Below are positions 2,074 to 30,055 of a stretch of 30,055 bases of DNA, in pieces. Position 1 is the first letter of the stretch. Each line of letters opens with the position of its first letter. The stretch spans positions 1-30,055 of IMG/VR virus record IMGVR_UViG_3300027295_000012, one strand, 5' to 3'. The stretch comes from a virus. The notes beneath the pieces are model-generated. The model was given only the letters and a program-made list of their open reading frames with translations, was not told where the DNA came from and did not search any database. A program made the position numbers and the translations under genes.

Positions 2074-4419
2074 ATGGATAAGAGCTTCACATCAAAACAA
2101 AAGGAAATCGTTGCACGTAAGATGGGATATGACGGTCCTATGCAGGGCTTCGACGACTTCCTTGCTTCGTCACCTTCTGACGCTCAGAAGTATAGCGCTA
2201 TCACTTCTAAGTTTGTGGAGCGTATGGCTAAGGGCGGTGTTGTGCAGCCTAAGAAGTTTGCTGAAGGTGGTGCTGTTCCTAAAGCACCTACTGCTACAAC
2301 CTACAAAGCTGAAGAGACTAAAATCACTCCCGGCATGACTGTGAAAACACCAGTCACAGGTGATGCTGTCACTGCATCACCTGTACAGGTTACACAAGCT
2401 GCTGGTGTATCTGCTCCCGCACCTGTTAAATCAACTAATGCCACCGCACAAACTACGCAAGGTGCTATTAAAACAGCACAAGCTGGTCAAACTGCAGCCA
2501 CAGGCACTGTCTCTGAAGGTTCTCTCGCTGAAGCAGAACAAGGCACAGTGTCTAAAGGTGCGATAGCTACAGCACAGACTGTCGACAAGTCAGCAGTCGT
2601 ACCTGTTGTTGCAAAAGAGCGTAAGACACAGGCTGGTGAAATGGTTGAAGCTGTCACCGAAGTCCCCACTATTACAGCAGAGGCTGCACAGACTAAATCA
2701 CCTGCAGCTGTAAAGGCTGCACAGGGACAAGTGCAGGCTAACGAGCTTGTCAAACCTGCTCAAATTGCAGAGCGTGACATGGCACAGGCTACAGCAATCA
2801 CTGCTGCAGGTCTTGCTCCTGACGCTAAGATGGTGGCAGCAAAGCTGGATAAATTTACAGTGGATGCTGGCACCTTGGCAGAAGCTGCACAGGGCAACGT
2901 TGATGCCATGTCTACAGTGCAAGGTCAGTTGTCTGAGCTGATGAAGAGCTTTGACGATGGTGCCACCCCTGCATGGGCTGCTGGTGCTATTCGTGGTGCT
3001 AACGCTGCTATGGCTGCACGAGGCTTGGGTGGTAGCTCTATGGCTGCTACAGCAATCTTCCAAGCCGCTATGGAGAGTGCCCTGCCTATTGCTGTACAGG
3101 ACGCTCAAGTGTTCCAGCAGATGGGTATGCAGAACCTGAACAACCGTCAGCAGGTTTCGTTGGCTAACGCTGCTGCACAGCAGGGTTTGTCTTTGCAGAA
3201 TCTGTCTAATGAACAGCAAGCCCGTCTTACCAACGCCACCAACTCGTTTGCTTTGCAGAGTCAAAACCTCAGCAACATGCAACAGACTATGTTGGCTAAC
3301 ACACAGATCAGAGCTACCTTGCAGGGACAGAACTTGTCCAACCAACAGCAAGCTGCAGTTGTTAATGCTGCTCGTTACGCTGAACAAGCCAACATCAACC
3401 TGAACAACTTGCAACAGGCTGCTTTGCATAACAGTTCTATGCAAGTGCAAGTGGACATTAGCAACACTTCTAACCGTCAGCAAACAGCTTTGGCTAATGC
3501 TCAGATTGAAGCCGCTATGCAGGGTAAGGTGTTGGATAATAAACAACAGGCTGCTGTGTTGAATGCTGCTCGTATTGCTGAAAACCTCAACACCACATTT
3601 ACTGCAGCACAACAAGCTGCTTTGAATAATTCTCAGTTGATGAAGGATATTGGTATTGCCAACTTGAATGCTTCACAACAAACGGTCCTAGCCAACGCAG
3701 CCACCATTGCTTCGATGGACATGGCAAACTTGAATGCTCGTCAGCAAACTGCTGTGCAGAATGCTCAGGCTTTCTTGGCAACAGATTTGAAGAACTTGGA
3801 TAATAAGCAGCAGATGGCTGTGTTGAAGAGTCAGCAAATTGCACAGTCTATCTTGTCTGATGCATCTGCAGCTAATGCTGCTTCATTGACCAATGCCACC
3901 AACGCTAACGATATTGCCAAGGTTAATGCTACATTGGCTTTGACAGCTAACCAGTTCAATGCTTCTGAGAAGAATAAGATAAGCTTGGCTAACATGGATG
4001 CTGCCAACGAACTCATCAAGTTTAACGCTCAAGAGAAGAATGATCGTGCTGAATTTAATTCACGCATGTCTGCTGAGATTAACGTAGCCAATGCTAAAAT
4101 CTTGGCTGATGTTTCTACAGCTAATACTGCTGCAGTCAATGCAGCCAATGCTGTGAATGCAAAGAACGCTACAGACTTGTCTGCTTCTACCTACGCTCAA
4201 CAGAGTCAGACCTACAGGGATTTGTTGTCGTATTCTTGGAAGACTGGTGAGAGCGCTAAAGATCGCATCTCTAACTTGGCTATTGCTTCTATTCAGAAAG
4301 ATGTTGCTAACATCAAGGCTGACGGTGATAATAGTAAAGCCATTGGTAGTCTCTTCACTGAAATTGCTAAGAACATTACTGTTAATGACATCAAGTCTGT
4401 ATTTGGAATTAAAAGGTAA
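2074..4419 (+). CDS. Large virion-type protein with 22-residue tandem repeats
   Basis: This 781-aa protein has four visible parts. A short N-terminal helical domain (1-60) ends in a glycine motif (A-K-G-G-V-V...F-A-E-G-G-A-V). Then comes an alanine-, threonine- and valine-rich low-complexity segment (about 65-250). A helical region (about 255-353) contains T-P-A-W-A-A-G and M-A-A-R-G-L-G. Eleven exact-length 22-residue repeats follow (354-595), leading to a helical C-terminal region. The start has AGGAAA before ATG 2074. Similar repeat proteins occur among virion genes of aquatic podovirus-like phages as I recall, without a known function. The rod-like, glutamine/asparagine-rich helix would suit an internal, ejection or tail component. 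It lies between endolysin and other virion-type genes. Confidence 0.78.
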   Translation: MDKSFTSKQKEIVARKMGYDGPMQGFDDFLASSPSDAQKYSAITSKFVERMAKGGVVQPKKFAEGGAVPKAPTATTYKAEETKITPGMTVKTPVTGDAVTASPVQVTQAAGVSAPAPVKSTNATAQTTQGAIKTAQAGQTAATGTVSEGSLAEAEQGTVSKGAIATAQTVDKSAVVPVVAKERKTQAGEMVEAVTEVPTITAEAAQTKSPAAVKAAQGQVQANELVKPAQIAERDMAQATAITAAGLAPDAKMVAAKLDKFTVDAGTLAEAAQGNVDAMSTVQGQLSELMKSFDDGATPAWAAGAIRGANAAMAARGLGGSSMAATAIFQAAMESALPIAVQDAQVFQQMGMQNLNNRQQVSLANAAAQQGLSLQNLSNEQQARLTNATNSFALQSQNLSNMQQTMLANTQIRATLQGQNLSNQQQAAVVNAARYAEQANINLNNLQQAALHNSSMQVQVDISNTSNRQQTALANAQIEAAMQGKVLDNKQQAAVLNAARIAENLNTTFTAAQQAALNNSQLMKDIGIANLNASQQTVLANAATIASMDMANLNARQQTAVQNAQAFLATDLKNLDNKQQMAVLKSQQIAQSILSDASAANAASLTNATNANDIAKVNATLALTANQFNASEKNKISLANMDAANELIKFNAQEKNDRAEFNSRMSAEINVANAKILADVSTANTAAVNAANAVNAKNATDLSASTYAQQSQTYRDLLSYSWKTGESAKDRISNLAIASIQKDVANIKADGDNSKAIGSLFTEIAKNITVNDIKSVFGIKR
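3133..3858 (+). repeat. Eleven in-frame 66-bp units coding 22-residue repeats
   Basis: The codons from 3133 to 3858 encode eleven consecutive units of exactly 22 residues without a gap. Each begins near N-L-x-N-x-Q-Q and carries an aliphatic residue then L/V/Q/H/K-N/S around unit positions 10-12. Units diverge strongly at DNA level, so this is an old protein repeat rather than a recent duplication. Twenty-two equals two 11-residue (hendecad) periods, which suggests a slightly right-handed coiled coil or a helical rod. Confidence 0.9.
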
Positions 4420-11882: not shown

Positions 11883-11958
11883 TGGCGAACCGAGTAGGAG
11901 TCGAACCCACAACCTACGGATTTGGAATCCGTTGCTCTGCCAGTTGAGCTACCGGAAC
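11883..11958 (-). tRNA. tRNA-Trp (CCA anticodon) with imperfect acceptor stem
   Basis: The 76-nt minus-strand sequence folds as a tRNA. The D stem GCTC/GAGC is perfect, and so is the anticodon stem ACGGA/TCCGT around loop TTCCAAA (anticodon CCA). The variable region is 5 nt. The T arm is GTGGG/CCTAC with one G-T pair and loop TTCGACT, and the CCA end is encoded. The acceptor strands GTTCCGG and TCGGTTC pair at positions 1, 4, 5, 6 and 7 but give U-U at 2-71 and 3-70. It may still function, need modification, or be decaying. It lies 1 nt after another tRNA gene and just before the terminator, so both are likely one transcript. Confidence 0.9.
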
Positions 11959-22019: not shown

Positions 22020-22452
22020 ATTGTATCACCAACTTTTCAGCGGCGTCAATGTAGTATTTGTAATCAACATCTTTCCATGTGAAGTCGTTGATGTCGTTGC
22101 AGGTCCACATACCGTAGCCATCACCAACACCTATGCGGCGTGGCTCAGCTTCTTCCTTCAGAGGTGGCATCACTTTGACAAGAGCACCACCTGCATTGCA
22201 AGCATAGAACCTACACATGTTTTGTTGTTGCACTTCTGTACCGTCCTGCATCACCATCACAAGCTTGCTGCTACGGGGCACCTTCACCCTAAGCATGAAG
22301 TCATACTTGTTCTTGTGACCTTTGATGTACACGTCGAGAGGAATGCCATGCAGCATAGCCGCTTCAGCCGCCATCGGTATGACCAAGCCACCCTGATCTT
22401 GATGCCAGCCAAGCCCTTCGTATTGATAGGCTCCCTTACGTTTTACTTTCAT
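22018..22452 (-). CDS. Family B DNA polymerase, C-terminal fragment (thumb)
   Basis: A 144-aa protein that looks like the direct continuation of the polymerase fragment at 23120-24754. It opens M-K-V-K-R-K-G-A-Y-Q-Y-E-G, which matches the K-x-Y region that follows the palm in family B polymerases. G-W-H-Q-D-Q-G, P-M-A-A-E-A-A and D-F-M-L-R-V-K-V-P-R-S-S follow, the thumb features of this phage polymerase group as I recall them. ATG 22452 has GAAAGGG about nine bases upstream; a TTG at 22470 is an alternative. It overlaps the GIY-YIG gene by 17 nt. Activity requires assembly with the N-terminal fragment. Confidence 0.82.
   Translation of the reverse strand: MKVKRKGAYQYEGLGWHQDQGGLVIPMAAEAAMLHGIPLDVYIKGHKNKYDFMLRVKVPRSSKLVMVMQDGTEVQQQNMCRFYACNAGGALVKVMPPLKEEAEPRRIGVGDGYGMWTCNDINDFTWKDVDYKYYIDAAEKLVIQ
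22020..22049 (-). promoter_or_regulatory. Promoter for the SSB/exonuclease operon
   Basis: TTGACG (22049-22044, 5/6 to -35), an 18-nt spacer and TACAAT (22025-22020, 5/6 to -10) preceded by TGA form an extended -10 promoter on the minus strand. It is inside the last codons and stop of the polymerase C-terminal fragment, 76 nt before the SSB start. Confidence 0.7.
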
Positions 22453-23098
22453 GAATGAAGACCCTTTCAATTGTTACGTTCTTAAACTTTTCAATGCTAC
22501 TTTTCTTTTTGTGAAATTTAGCAAGCACGTTTGACAAACCATTCTCTTGAAGTTCTCTGTATGAATAAGTTTCAATGTGTCCATCCTCGTGTGTAATCAC
22601 ATACAAATACTTAGTCAAAGTTTTTGACAGGGTTCTGCCTTGCTCAGCCCTATCTCGATTCTTCCAAGACTCTTTAAGTTTGTCAGAGTGTCCGTCCCGC
22701 TTACCGTCCTCCCACTCTTTCTTGACTCTGCGGCTAATCTTCTTTCTAGTCTCGTCGTGTACATGCATTCCAGAAGATGAGTCAGATCTCAGGTTGTACC
22801 CTTTGTTTTGATTCAAAGAATTAAGATGTTGCATCCACCATAATTCGCGTTCTGAAATGTGTTCTTCTTCCACAAACTCAAGGGGGAACATCTCAAAAGA
22901 ATCAACGCCATACTTGATCATTGAGTTGTACAAGTGAGGGTTCATTCGATCTGAGTTGTTTCCATTTCTCACATCGGACAAATACTGATGGCACCTCTTC
23001 CATATACACTTTGTCTTTCCGACGTATACTTTTCCATTAACTGTATTGTATATACAGTAGATCAATGGTCGTTGTTTGAGTAGGATGATTGGTTTCAT
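22436..23098 (-). CDS. GIY-YIG homing endonuclease inserted in the polymerase gene
   Basis: A 220-aa protein with the GIY-YIG core: C15-I-Y17, then Y25-V-G27-K, R35, and an S-E-R-E-L-W-W-M helix (E83/E85) followed by N-K-G-Y-N. A DNA-binding region with R-K-K-I-S-R-R, typical of NUMOD3/I-TevI-like linkers, is at about 117-125. It lies between two halves of a polymerase gene, 21 nt after the first and overlapping the second by 17 nt, so it is a free-standing homing gene with no intron around it. It has no clear Shine-Dalgarno and an extended -10 motif directly upstream, so its message may be leaderless. Confidence 0.9.
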   Translation of the reverse strand: MKPIILLKQRPLIYCIYNTVNGKVYVGKTKCIWKRCHQYLSDVRNGNNSDRMNPHLYNSMIKYGVDSFEMFPLEFVEEEHISERELWWMQHLNSLNQNKGYNLRSDSSSGMHVHDETRKKISRRVKKEWEDGKRDGHSDKLKESWKNRDRAEQGRTLSKTLTKYLYVITHEDGHIETYSYRELQENGLSNVLAKFHKKKSSIEKFKNVTIERVFIHESKT

Positions 23099-28590: not shown

Positions 28591-29229
28591 TCATTCTCCA
28601 AAGAAAGCAGACACAGTTACAGGTGCAACACCACGCAGCACAGTCAACACATCCTGTGCAACCTCACGATGTTCGCTTTGTGTTGATGGGTCCATACGCA
28701 CTTGGCAGTATGTGATGAAGCTACGCAGTGTACCTGTCATGTACAAACGTGAGGGTGTCAGTCCTTCAGGCAACAAAGCACGGGCTTGTTCCTTTGCGAT
28801 ATTACGCTTGAGCGCTTCACCGTACAAGAACTGTGCTTCGTCGGTCATACGCTTCTGTGCTGCAGCCCACCACACGTTAAGGTCAGAGTCGTCAGAGACA
28901 ATGGAGTTCTGGCGGTTCTTCAAATCCTGTGTTCGGCATTCACGAATAGCGAAGTCACCAAGCGAAGACACATCTGCGTATCGTTGACTGAACTCGGAGA
29001 AGCTGAAACTGCGGTGACGAATGATTTGGCGACCTATATCCCTACTGGTGGTTACTTCAACACAAGCACTAGCGTGCTCAAACACAGACCAATGTGCGTT
29101 CTTTGCACAATACTTTAGTAGCTTCGCCACATCAGGATTGTTTTGATTGTCAGGGTTACTCACACGGGCAACATAACCGATGTGTTTGTCTGCGTCTGGT
29201 GTTACCCAAATAAGTTTTGCTGTGTTCAT
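28591..29229 (-). CDS. thyX: Flavin-dependent thymidylate synthase
   Basis: A 212-aa protein with the ThyX signature R71-H-R-S-F-S-F-S-E-F-S-Q-R-Y84, preceded by F-E-H-A and followed by a C-terminal R-S-F-I region. ThyX makes dTMP from dUMP with FAD, methylene-tetrahydrofolate and NADPH. ATG 29229 has AAAGGAAG at a good distance; the frame stays open to 29391 but that part is shared with nothing recognisable. With NrdAB it secures dTTP for phage replication. Confidence 0.94.
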   Translation of the reverse strand: MNTAKLIWVTPDADKHIGYVARVSNPDNQNNPDVAKLLKYCAKNAHWSVFEHASACVEVTTSRDIGRQIIRHRSFSFSEFSQRYADVSSLGDFAIRECRTQDLKNRQNSIVSDDSDLNVWWAAAQKRMTDEAQFLYGEALKRNIAKEQARALLPEGLTPSRLYMTGTLRSFITYCQVRMDPSTQSEHREVAQDVLTVLRGVAPVTVSAFFGE

Positions 29230-29263: not shown

Positions 29264-29791
29264 TTACCACATGTCAGGCCAGTGGCGGTTGCCTTTTGAA
29301 ATGTTGTCGCTTGCTGGCAACAGTTGAAGATTCGCTTCGCAGTGTAGGCCGCAGACTGAGTTGCTCTGTAAGGGGACAATGTGATCAACATGCATTTTTA
29401 TTCCTATGTCAGCGAACAGTAAAGCAAGATAATACATCCCCTCAACAGCATCATTATCTACCCACGAAGGAGTAGCCAAAATACGAGAGGCTCTACGTTT
29501 AGAAGTGTTGGCATTAACTTTACTTTTGTTTAACTCATAGTAGCGCTTCATTAAGAATGCTATACGTTCTTTGTTTTCTCTGCGGTACTTTTTATTGTAT
29601 GAACACGTGATCTCTTTTATGCCTTGTCTGTACCTGTGCAATCGTGTAGCAATAACGTCTGCTTTATCTTTTCTATAAGCTTTATCACAAAGCTTGCATC
29701 TATTGCTGACACCTTTACTTGCTCGTTTGTCTTTAACAAAACAATCAACTGTCTTCTCAACACCACACTTAGTACACACCTTTGTCAGCAT
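29264..29791 (-). CDS. HNH endonuclease, free-standing
   Basis: A 175-aa protein with an N-terminal zinc ribbon (C-T-K-C-G and C-K-L-C-D), a basic central helix (R-K-D-K..., K-K-Y-R-R-E-N-K-E-R) and a C-terminal HNH core (H-V-D-H-I-V-P-L, H-C-E-A-N-L-Q-L-L and N-I-S-K-G-N-R). This is the arrangement of phage homing-type HNH proteins. I chose ATG 29791, with TAGGA six bases upstream; a TTG at 29809 lies in the terminator region. It is encoded after the structured RNA element and before thyX. Confidence 0.85.
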   Translation of the reverse strand: MLTKVCTKCGVEKTVDCFVKDKRASKGVSNRCKLCDKAYRKDKADVIATRLHRYRQGIKEITCSYNKKYRRENKERIAFLMKRYYELNKSKVNANTSKRRASRILATPSWVDNDAVEGMYYLALLFADIGIKMHVDHIVPLQSNSVCGLHCEANLQLLPASDNISKGNRHWPDMW

Positions 29792-29807: not shown

Positions 29808-29924
29808 AAAAAAGCCTGCTAAGACTACCCAAGCGACCTCGAACATCGCTTGTTGCATTACTGCAATGGTAGCCTTAGCAGGCTTCACTATGTGTGCTAT
29901 CAGGTTCGAGCTGTAGCACCACTG
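29808..29924 (-). ncRNA. Candidate structured small RNA with kissing loops and poly-U end
   Basis: Minus-strand order after the promoter: hairpin A (29917-29896) has GCTACAG and CTG(A)TAGC around loop CTCGAAC. After a 10-nt linker an 18-bp stem forms (29885-29868 with 29829-29812), 12 perfect pairs, one G-U and 5 pairs. It encloses two hairpins: TTGCA-GTAA-TGCAA (29866-29853) and AAGCGA-loop-TCGCTT (29851-29831). The last loop contains GTTCGAG, perfectly complementary to the CTCGAAC loop of hairpin A, so a 7-bp kissing interaction is possible. Six T follow the stem (29813-29808), as in intrinsic terminators. No known RNA family is recognised; an attP role is an alternative. Confidence 0.6.
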
Positions 29925-29930
29925 TCTATA

Positions 29931-29960
29931 GTTATATCATACCACGCATTTGCTGTGCAA
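29931..29960 (-). promoter_or_regulatory. Promoter for the structured RNA / thyX region
   Basis: TGATATAAC (29939-29931) is an extended -10 overlapping the integrase stop codon; TTGCAC (29960-29955) lies 18 nt upstream (first three bases match -35). The same TGATATAAC precedes the tRNA pair. The predicted start is near 29924. Confidence 0.55.
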
Positions 29961-30055
29961 CAGTGGCGCTCTTCAATGTGTGTCTAATGTACGGTGTCAA
30001 TGATGAAGGCGTAGCATGCCCGGTAACGGCCATAACGTTTGTCAAAGGAACACCA
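29932..30055 (-). CDS. Tyrosine recombinase (integrase), C-terminal part
   Basis: The frame enters from the right edge and ends at TAA (29934-29932). The 40 visible residues include M-A-V-T-G-H-A-T-P-S-S-L-T-P-Y-I-R-H-T, the box II end of tyrosine recombinases. A conserved G-H is followed by the nucleophilic tyrosine exactly nine residues later, the same spacing as in XerC/XerD. The enzyme would cut and rejoin DNA at attachment sites or resolve multimers. The remainder, including the first catalytic arginine, is outside the window. Its presence suggests a temperate lifestyle, or a recombinase retained by a lytic phage. Confidence 0.72.
   Translation of the reverse strand, partial: GVPLTNVMAVTGHATPSSLTPYIRHTLKSATVAQQMRGMI

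Follow-up and report, generated by a model that had tools for sequence, protein, structure and literature searches.

A conserved kissing-loop RNA between an integrase and an HNH endonuclease gene in uncultivated phages, a candidate terminator leader

Does the short interval separating an integrase stop codon from an HNH endonuclease gene in a phage genome encode a conserved RNA and, if so, how is that RNA related to the gene which follows it? The question was raised by a first-pass annotation that placed a candidate structured RNA just downstream of the integrase end, a location which held on closer analysis and is on the minus strand. The window, i.e. the whole stretch of 30,055 nucleotides analysed, is a complete IMG/VR virus record containing genes for a ribonucleotide reductase, an RNA ligase, a DNA polymerase, a primase-helicase, a GIY-YIG homing endonuclease, the HNH protein and ThyX, together with the end of an integrase gene. 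Judged by the primase protein, MW202701 is closest to it in the phage collection; this record is podovirus-like and comes from a spring. The genes surrounding the RNA are carried on the minus strand, where the order is integrase stop, extended -10, P1, P2 (enclosing P3 and P4), U6, AGGA and HNH start. An SD-like AGGA and the AUG of the HNH gene lie directly after the U-tract, and thyX is next downstream of HNH in the same direction, across a 34-nt gap. The HNH gene is of the free-standing homing endonuclease type, and the same integrase tail is present in 18 thyX loci. The features of this neighbourhood are as follows.

29933..30055, minus strand: C-terminal end of a tyrosine integrase gene, cut by the record end
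29931..29939, minus strand: putative extended -10 promoter TGATATAAC, read directly, activity inferred
29808..29925, minus strand: structured RNA, type I element, ~118 nt (z -7.97; covariance model R1, 129 bits; covariation)
29264..29791, minus strand: HNH endonuclease gene (endonuclease VII-like, phrog_1035), from PHROG matches
28591..29229, minus strand: thyX (Thy1), Pfam PF02511, 1.7e-41

A second copy of the structured RNA was not found in the window; the GIY-YIG homing endonuclease gene (22439-23098, minus strand), which adjoins the DNA polymerase gene, has no copy before it.

The element folds into a 5' hairpin followed by a three-way junction, all on the minus strand.

29922-29911/29903-29890, minus strand: P1 hairpin, 12 pairs with bulges, with kissing loop L1 (CUCGAAC, 29910-29904)
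29886-29868/29829-29811, minus strand: P2 stem, 19 bp, around the three-way junction and forming the base of the putative terminator
29866-29862/29857-29853, minus strand: P3 hairpin, 5 bp, with a GNRA tetraloop (GUAA)
29852-29845/29837-29830, minus strand: P4 hairpin, 8 bp, with kissing loop GUUCGAG (29844-29838)
29813-29808, minus strand: U6 tract at the P2 foot, read directly, resembling an intrinsic terminator

Stems of 7, 18, 5 and 6 bp had been proposed initially, a description which held in part, the helices now being P1 of 12 pairs, P2 of 19, P3 of 5 and P4 of 8. The accompanying claim that the 7-nt loops of P1 and P4 are exactly complementary (CTCGAAC/GTTCGAG) held without change. Minimum free energy of the element is -60.2 kcal/mol compared with -32.8 +/- 3.4 in shuffled sequences (z = -7.97), a value reached by 0/200 shuffles. 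A start behind an extended -10 and an end in six U had also been claimed; both motifs are confirmed by direct reading, and their activity is inferred. The extended -10 overlaps the integrase stop codon (ATA TAA) and was not called by a consensus promoter scanner, because the -35 is not good; nearly all related elements, one of them at a different insertion site, carry the TG-n-TATAAC/TATACC motif. Similarly, a simple terminator scanner made no call at the element, because the loop of P2 is 75 nt. The ~118-nt RNA itself leaves the HNH ribosome binding site unpaired. Each P2 arm (29886-29868; 29829-29811) is near-palindromic, AGCCU-NNNN-AGGCU, such that a local hairpin is conceivable in either arm, that of the 3' arm alone constituting a potential small terminator. 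Separately, CUAUAGAC (window 29931-29924), located just upstream of the likely start, could pair with GUUUAUAG (29806-29799) over the HNH ribosome binding site. This pairing is observed in several members with a mean of -9.4 kcal/mol for own partners and -8.0 for crossed partners, which is weak against the control and suggestive only; it would possibly affect only transcripts arriving from upstream, as in T4 I-TevI.

Related elements were obtained initially through protein-based searches, independent of the RNA, which supplied thyX and HNH relatives. The element is present in five of these (L004, L006, L022, where it occurs twice, L027 and L030), and two pattern scans enlarged the set to 15 distinct type I elements in viral contigs. 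The scan patterns fix the outer P2 letters (AAGCCT...AGGCTTTTTT), and conservation there is therefore partly a product of selection; these letters can differ, as observed in L030. In a covariance-model alignment of the 15 elements 94.8% of cells are paired, with changes on both sides at 31 of the 48 pairs and 147 double-change cells compared with 46.5 in shuffles. Neither the pairing nor the double-change value was matched in 500 shuffles, and controls in which the partner strand was slid gave only 31-44% pairing. Double changes occur at 8 of the 10 modelled pairs of P1, at 10 of the 18 modelled pairs of P2 (98.5% of cells paired) and at all 8 pairs of P4. Helix lengths are fixed among type I elements, P2 and U6 are present in all 15, and the P3 loop is GCAA, GAAA or GUGA in most relatives. 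As compensatory changes exceed both shuffled and slid controls, the element is a real structured RNA and not a chance fold. G-U cells outnumber A-C cells by 59 to 7; thus it is the minus-strand, gene-sense RNA which is conserved, and not the other strand or the DNA.

The loop-loop helix was assessed separately, since the alignment fit covers the nested helices with the kiss left out. All counted cells of this 7-bp helix are paired (100%), with double changes at 4 of the 7 pairs. Nine distinct kissing pairs were observed: CUCGAAC/GUUCGAG, CUCGCAC/GUGCGAG (the pair in L006), CUCGACC/GGUCGAG, CUCAUCC/GGAUGAG, CUCGUCC/GGACGAG, CUGAUAC/GUAUCAG, CUGACC/GGUCAG, CUAGACC/GGUCUAG and CUGGAAC/GUUCCAG, five of which were already represented among elements found without any pattern. 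L1 is a perfect complement of its own P4 loop over 6-9 nt, compared with usually 3-5 nt for the loops of other members, and paralogues within one phage differ in their loop pair (L004/L120 and L022a/L022b). Covariation in the long stem and in both loops, which the first-pass annotation had named as a check on its proposal, is thus found across the 15 elements.

All 15 type I elements lie just upstream of a start codon, the P2-to-AUG distance being 17-27 nt in those picked up by the descriptor described below, and the RNA structure adjoins the ribosome binding site of a homing endonuclease gene as in T4-type leaders. For 14 elements an HNH gene of the window's type follows; the second copy in L022 (L022b), which has a different loop pair, lies before an HNH_3 gene that is unrelated and belongs to another family. 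An integrase followed by the RNA and HNH is the arrangement in the window, L004 and L022. The L006 module, in which 20 promoter-proximal bases are identical, follows another gene, ~270 nt behind thyX, and an empty counterpart of this site is present in L002, L004 and L005. The integrase neighbourhood is therefore incidental, as the same module is placed elsewhere in L006. In 14 relatives without the element that were inspected at the junction, the integrase stop leads straight into thyX in six and to another gene in eight; neither the RNA nor the HNH gene is present in empty integrase-thyX alleles, and nothing was found when 19 loci of the element-free junction type were searched with a covariance model. 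A promoter-anchored scan for type I copies lacking an endonuclease yielded none. The RNA is absent from other HNH relatives (L023-L026, L028 and L029), and therefore the endonuclease has no need of the RNA. The RNA and the endonuclease are a modular pair that travels together.

A second class of element (type II) was recovered with a pattern derived from one off-type match, yielding 42 distinct viral sequences, and the alignment comprises 36 of them.

L145-L214, uncultivated phages: type II loci, for example L150:4084-4193

The fold consists of P1, an 18-bp U-ended P2 and a three-way junction, with 98.7% of cells paired, double changes at 25 of 37 pairs, no match in 500 shuffles and 65 G-U cells compared with 0 A-C cells. 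Two pseudoknots are formed. The first, PK1, joins the P1 loop UUGGNGG to the strand CCNCCAA linking P3 and P4, the N position covarying; the second is formed by the P3 loop with J1/2, the strand that separates P1 from P2, in many sequence versions. A single copy is present in 22 of 23 phage records. Type II elements head early operons (replication initiators, DUF1376 and a ParB-like gene) and also precede NUMOD4, HNH_3, HNH-AP2 and GIY-YIG endonucleases. Two divergent type II RNAs were observed in one phage record, L190 (1964-2073, minus strand, and 2737-2842, plus strand), with a corresponding divergent pair in L179, where each RNA is followed by its own endonuclease-like gene.

Bacterial occurrences of type II are few. 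The pattern gave 65 matches in 84,980 bacterial genomes and the fold was kept in L248 only, so that most of these matches represent chance in GC-rich DNA. Covariance model R2 matched 2 genomes among 300 of the order of L248; model R1 gave 0 matches in the same 300 genomes, which shows little. A bacterial contig found with a covariance model, L282:1501-1607 (G093 contig 30), carries the PK1 letters UUGGUCG/CGACCAA before a DUF1376-like gene; the region is presumably prophage, and the genome belongs to the same taxonomic order as that of the Burkholderiales match L248. The two types are similarly built and could be homologous, which is not proven: R2 does not match the window element, and a few type II members give weak matches to R1.

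In truncated folds of type II, representing the RNA prior to synthesis of its 3' half, the helices of both pseudoknots combine into a single nested hairpin. The element shows two conserved folds, which are possibly exclusive. Exclusion, and hence a switch, is suggested by the position of the J1/2 pseudoknot strand, which abuts the foot of the terminator stem P2; this is an inference, and it is possible that the pseudoknotted and terminated states cannot be adopted together, as in a riboswitch or attenuator. No convincing antiterminator was found in type I by minimum free energy of truncated RNA. Judging from helix lengths, a P1-kiss-P4 stack estimated at ~25 bp could lie alongside P2 in type I, in which case the kiss and the terminator could coexist.

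What might the type I RNA do? Our preferred reading, to which we give even odds of being correct, is that it represents a new class of phage structured RNA acting in cis as the terminator leader of a homing endonuclease gene. Transcription would start just downstream of the element's own extended -10 and the RNA would fold into P1 and the three-way junction P2/P3/P4, locked by the 7-bp kiss of the P1 and P4 loops. The P2 foot and U6 would then act as an intrinsic terminator directly before the endonuclease ribosome binding site, most transcripts ending there as a stable ~118-nt RNA, while expression of the endonuclease, and possibly of thyX behind it, would depend on read-through transcripts alone. 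The inferred purpose is restraint of a DNA-cutting gene, the activity of which would be kept low. The fold, the kiss, conservation as gene-sense RNA, co-movement with the endonuclease and the strict start-codon spacing are shown; promoter activity, termination, action in cis and the role of the kiss are inferred. That the leader passes only read-through RNA is inferred because coupling to the start codon is tight and the end is terminator-like. Regulatory RNA, decoy and HNH-thyX leader had been offered as functional guesses at the outset; the leader is the best supported, as the element always ends 17-27 nt before a homing endonuclease start codon, and function is unproven. Against the terminator leader, there are no transcript or termination data, the 75-nt loop in P2 is unusual for an intrinsic terminator, and neither a ligand nor an antiterminator structure has been shown for type I. 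The elaborateness of the kiss, where a plain hairpin would be enough for termination, suggests a further function, in sensing or in trans.

The alternative which survives best, and which remains possible, is a phage small RNA acting in trans, whether as an antisense, decoy or immunity RNA (compare IsrK, P4 CI and C4), that shares a mobile module with the endonuclease, read-through being secondary. In its favour, the promoter motif and U6 end would mark off a separate ~118-nt RNA that opens with a hairpin at the 5' end, the constancy of helix lengths suggests that the fold is compact and finished, and a dual sRNA/mRNA prophage RNA is known in IsrK (PMC4825925). However, a start codon always follows the element at 17-27 nt, every copy found is accompanied by an endonuclease, even with the promoter-anchored scan, and there is no Rfam C4 match. 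It is unlikely that the element is merely an elaborate insulator, a strong terminator for integrase transcripts without a regulatory role. Its position right after the integrase stop, its U6 end and the terminators that also flank T4 homing genes (PMC2988022) are consistent with insulation, but a terminator needs no covarying loop-loop helix, GNRA-capped third arm or promoter of its own, and the L006 copy is not behind an integrase.

Two further readings have very little support. An RNA oligomerising through its two loops in a scaffold role, as in pRNA or ROOL/GOLLD, is permitted by L1/L4 complementarity, which would allow pairing between molecules too; however, the two loops belong to one 118-nt RNA and are spaced such that a ring could close within the molecule, and paralogues of one phage have different loop pairs. 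A DNA element, whether an attP or recombination site, a homing target or a single-strand replication signal folding as DNA, would fit the adjacent integrase, the long inverted repeats and the proximity of type II to replication initiator genes, but is opposed by the GU:AC asymmetry in both types (59:7 and 65:0), by confinement of the U-tract and promoter to one strand and by the L006 module lying away from an integrase. The DNA-structure reading was rejected on the strand asymmetry and second insertion site, as was an attP or tRNA-derived integration site, the L006 module not being bound to the integrase locus. Finally, the 39-aa frame VKPAKATIAVMQQAMFEVAWVVLAGFFVYRIYHADKGVY, read as a small membrane peptide, the conservation of which had been named at the outset as refuting an RNA, is all but excluded and was rejected, leaving the RNA reading standing, since although it is open in the window, L004, L022a and L112, and also in L006 with GTA in place of the start codon, it is not conserved, meeting a stop after 4-28 codons in 9 of 15 relatives, losing its start codon in two and acquiring frame-breaking indels while base pairing persists.

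The RNA was not recognised among described families. In Rfam 15 only a tRNA at 11886-11958 was matched in the window, the element at E<=10 gave nothing near the gathering score, and type II and other loci at E<=2 gave none except a sub-threshold rimP match. The C4 antisense RNA covariance model (RF01695) did not match and no ant gene lies downstream; blastn of type I, type II and other elements against 50,697 phage records gave no match, such that annotated context from cultured phages is lacking, and no description of the structured RNA was found in the literature searched, many journals being outside its coverage. The proposal of a candidate new structured RNA therefore held, with covariation favouring RNA and no Rfam match. 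The class appears likely to be new, and an RNA leader restraining a homing endonuclease or early operon is a known kind of control that would be extended here.

The terminator-leader reading of type I has its nearest parallels in T4-type phages, which damp homing endonucleases through RNA hairpins, late promoters and terminators (PMC2988022). I-TevI, segB, mobE, which has a terminator inside the gene, and seg43(25) have an expression-limiting RNA structure directly before or within a free-standing or intron homing endonuclease gene, and T4-type homing genes have a promoter immediately upstream, matched here by the putative extended -10; in Aeromonas phage 25, the hairpin of seg43(25) is very stable and has its foot just before an unsequestered ribosome binding site (PMC2988022). 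In contrast, T4-type structures are single hairpins, mostly sequestering the ribosome binding site (PMC2988022), whereas the present element has a three-way junction, a covarying kiss, its own putative promoter and U6, and is common to unrelated endonuclease families. IsrK of Gifsy-1 has the organisation of own promoter and terminator that is inferred for the element, one prophage locus giving a terminated sRNA and a read-through mRNA (PMC4825925); its action in trans is proven (PMC4825925), and no sequence or fold match between it and the element has been shown. C4 of P1/P7-type phages (RF01695) and P4 CI are small phage RNAs with a junction fold located upstream of the gene they control. They differ in that the complementary partners of the element lie within one 118-nt RNA. 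GOLLD, ROOL (PMC12286853) and phi29 pRNA share loop-loop contacts and junctions in phage-borne RNA but differ in size, context and the U-ended stem by the ribosome binding site.

The structured RNA class described here is well supported, has no entry in Rfam and has been detected so far only in uncultivated phages, type II additionally in two bacterial genome contigs. Its putative promoter and terminator, the activity of which is inferred, would make it a portable promoter-RNA-terminator cassette packaged with selfish endonucleases of unrelated families, and a direct test of RNA throttling of DNA-cutting or replication genes by phages and their parasites is enabled. The loop pairs also provide a clean natural series of orthogonal kissing loops.

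A bolder reading, which we consider clearly more likely to be wrong than right, is that types I and II belong to a superfamily of RNA switches, pseudoknot-controlled terminators heading phage replication operons which have been captured as a portable cassette by unrelated homing endonucleases. The architectures would differ, type I having the P1:P4 kiss and a GNRA arm and type II the pseudoknots L1:J3/4 and J1/2:L3. A descriptor for a hairpin with a loop complementary to the interior of the long U-ended stem after it identified 49 distinct sites in the fetched loci compared with 1 in reversed sequence; these loci are pattern-enriched, and the counts are therefore a specificity check and not a frequency. 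Further U-ended junction hairpins with a complementary upstream loop were observed at L096:5954-6095, L118:6439-6578 (minus strand) and L106:6212-6341 and in L124, L131, L137, L119 and L115. Genes downstream of these are not obviously endonucleases, and the loop matches include GUGAGAA/UUCUCAC, GUGGAAA/UUUCCAC and one of 11 nt in L115.
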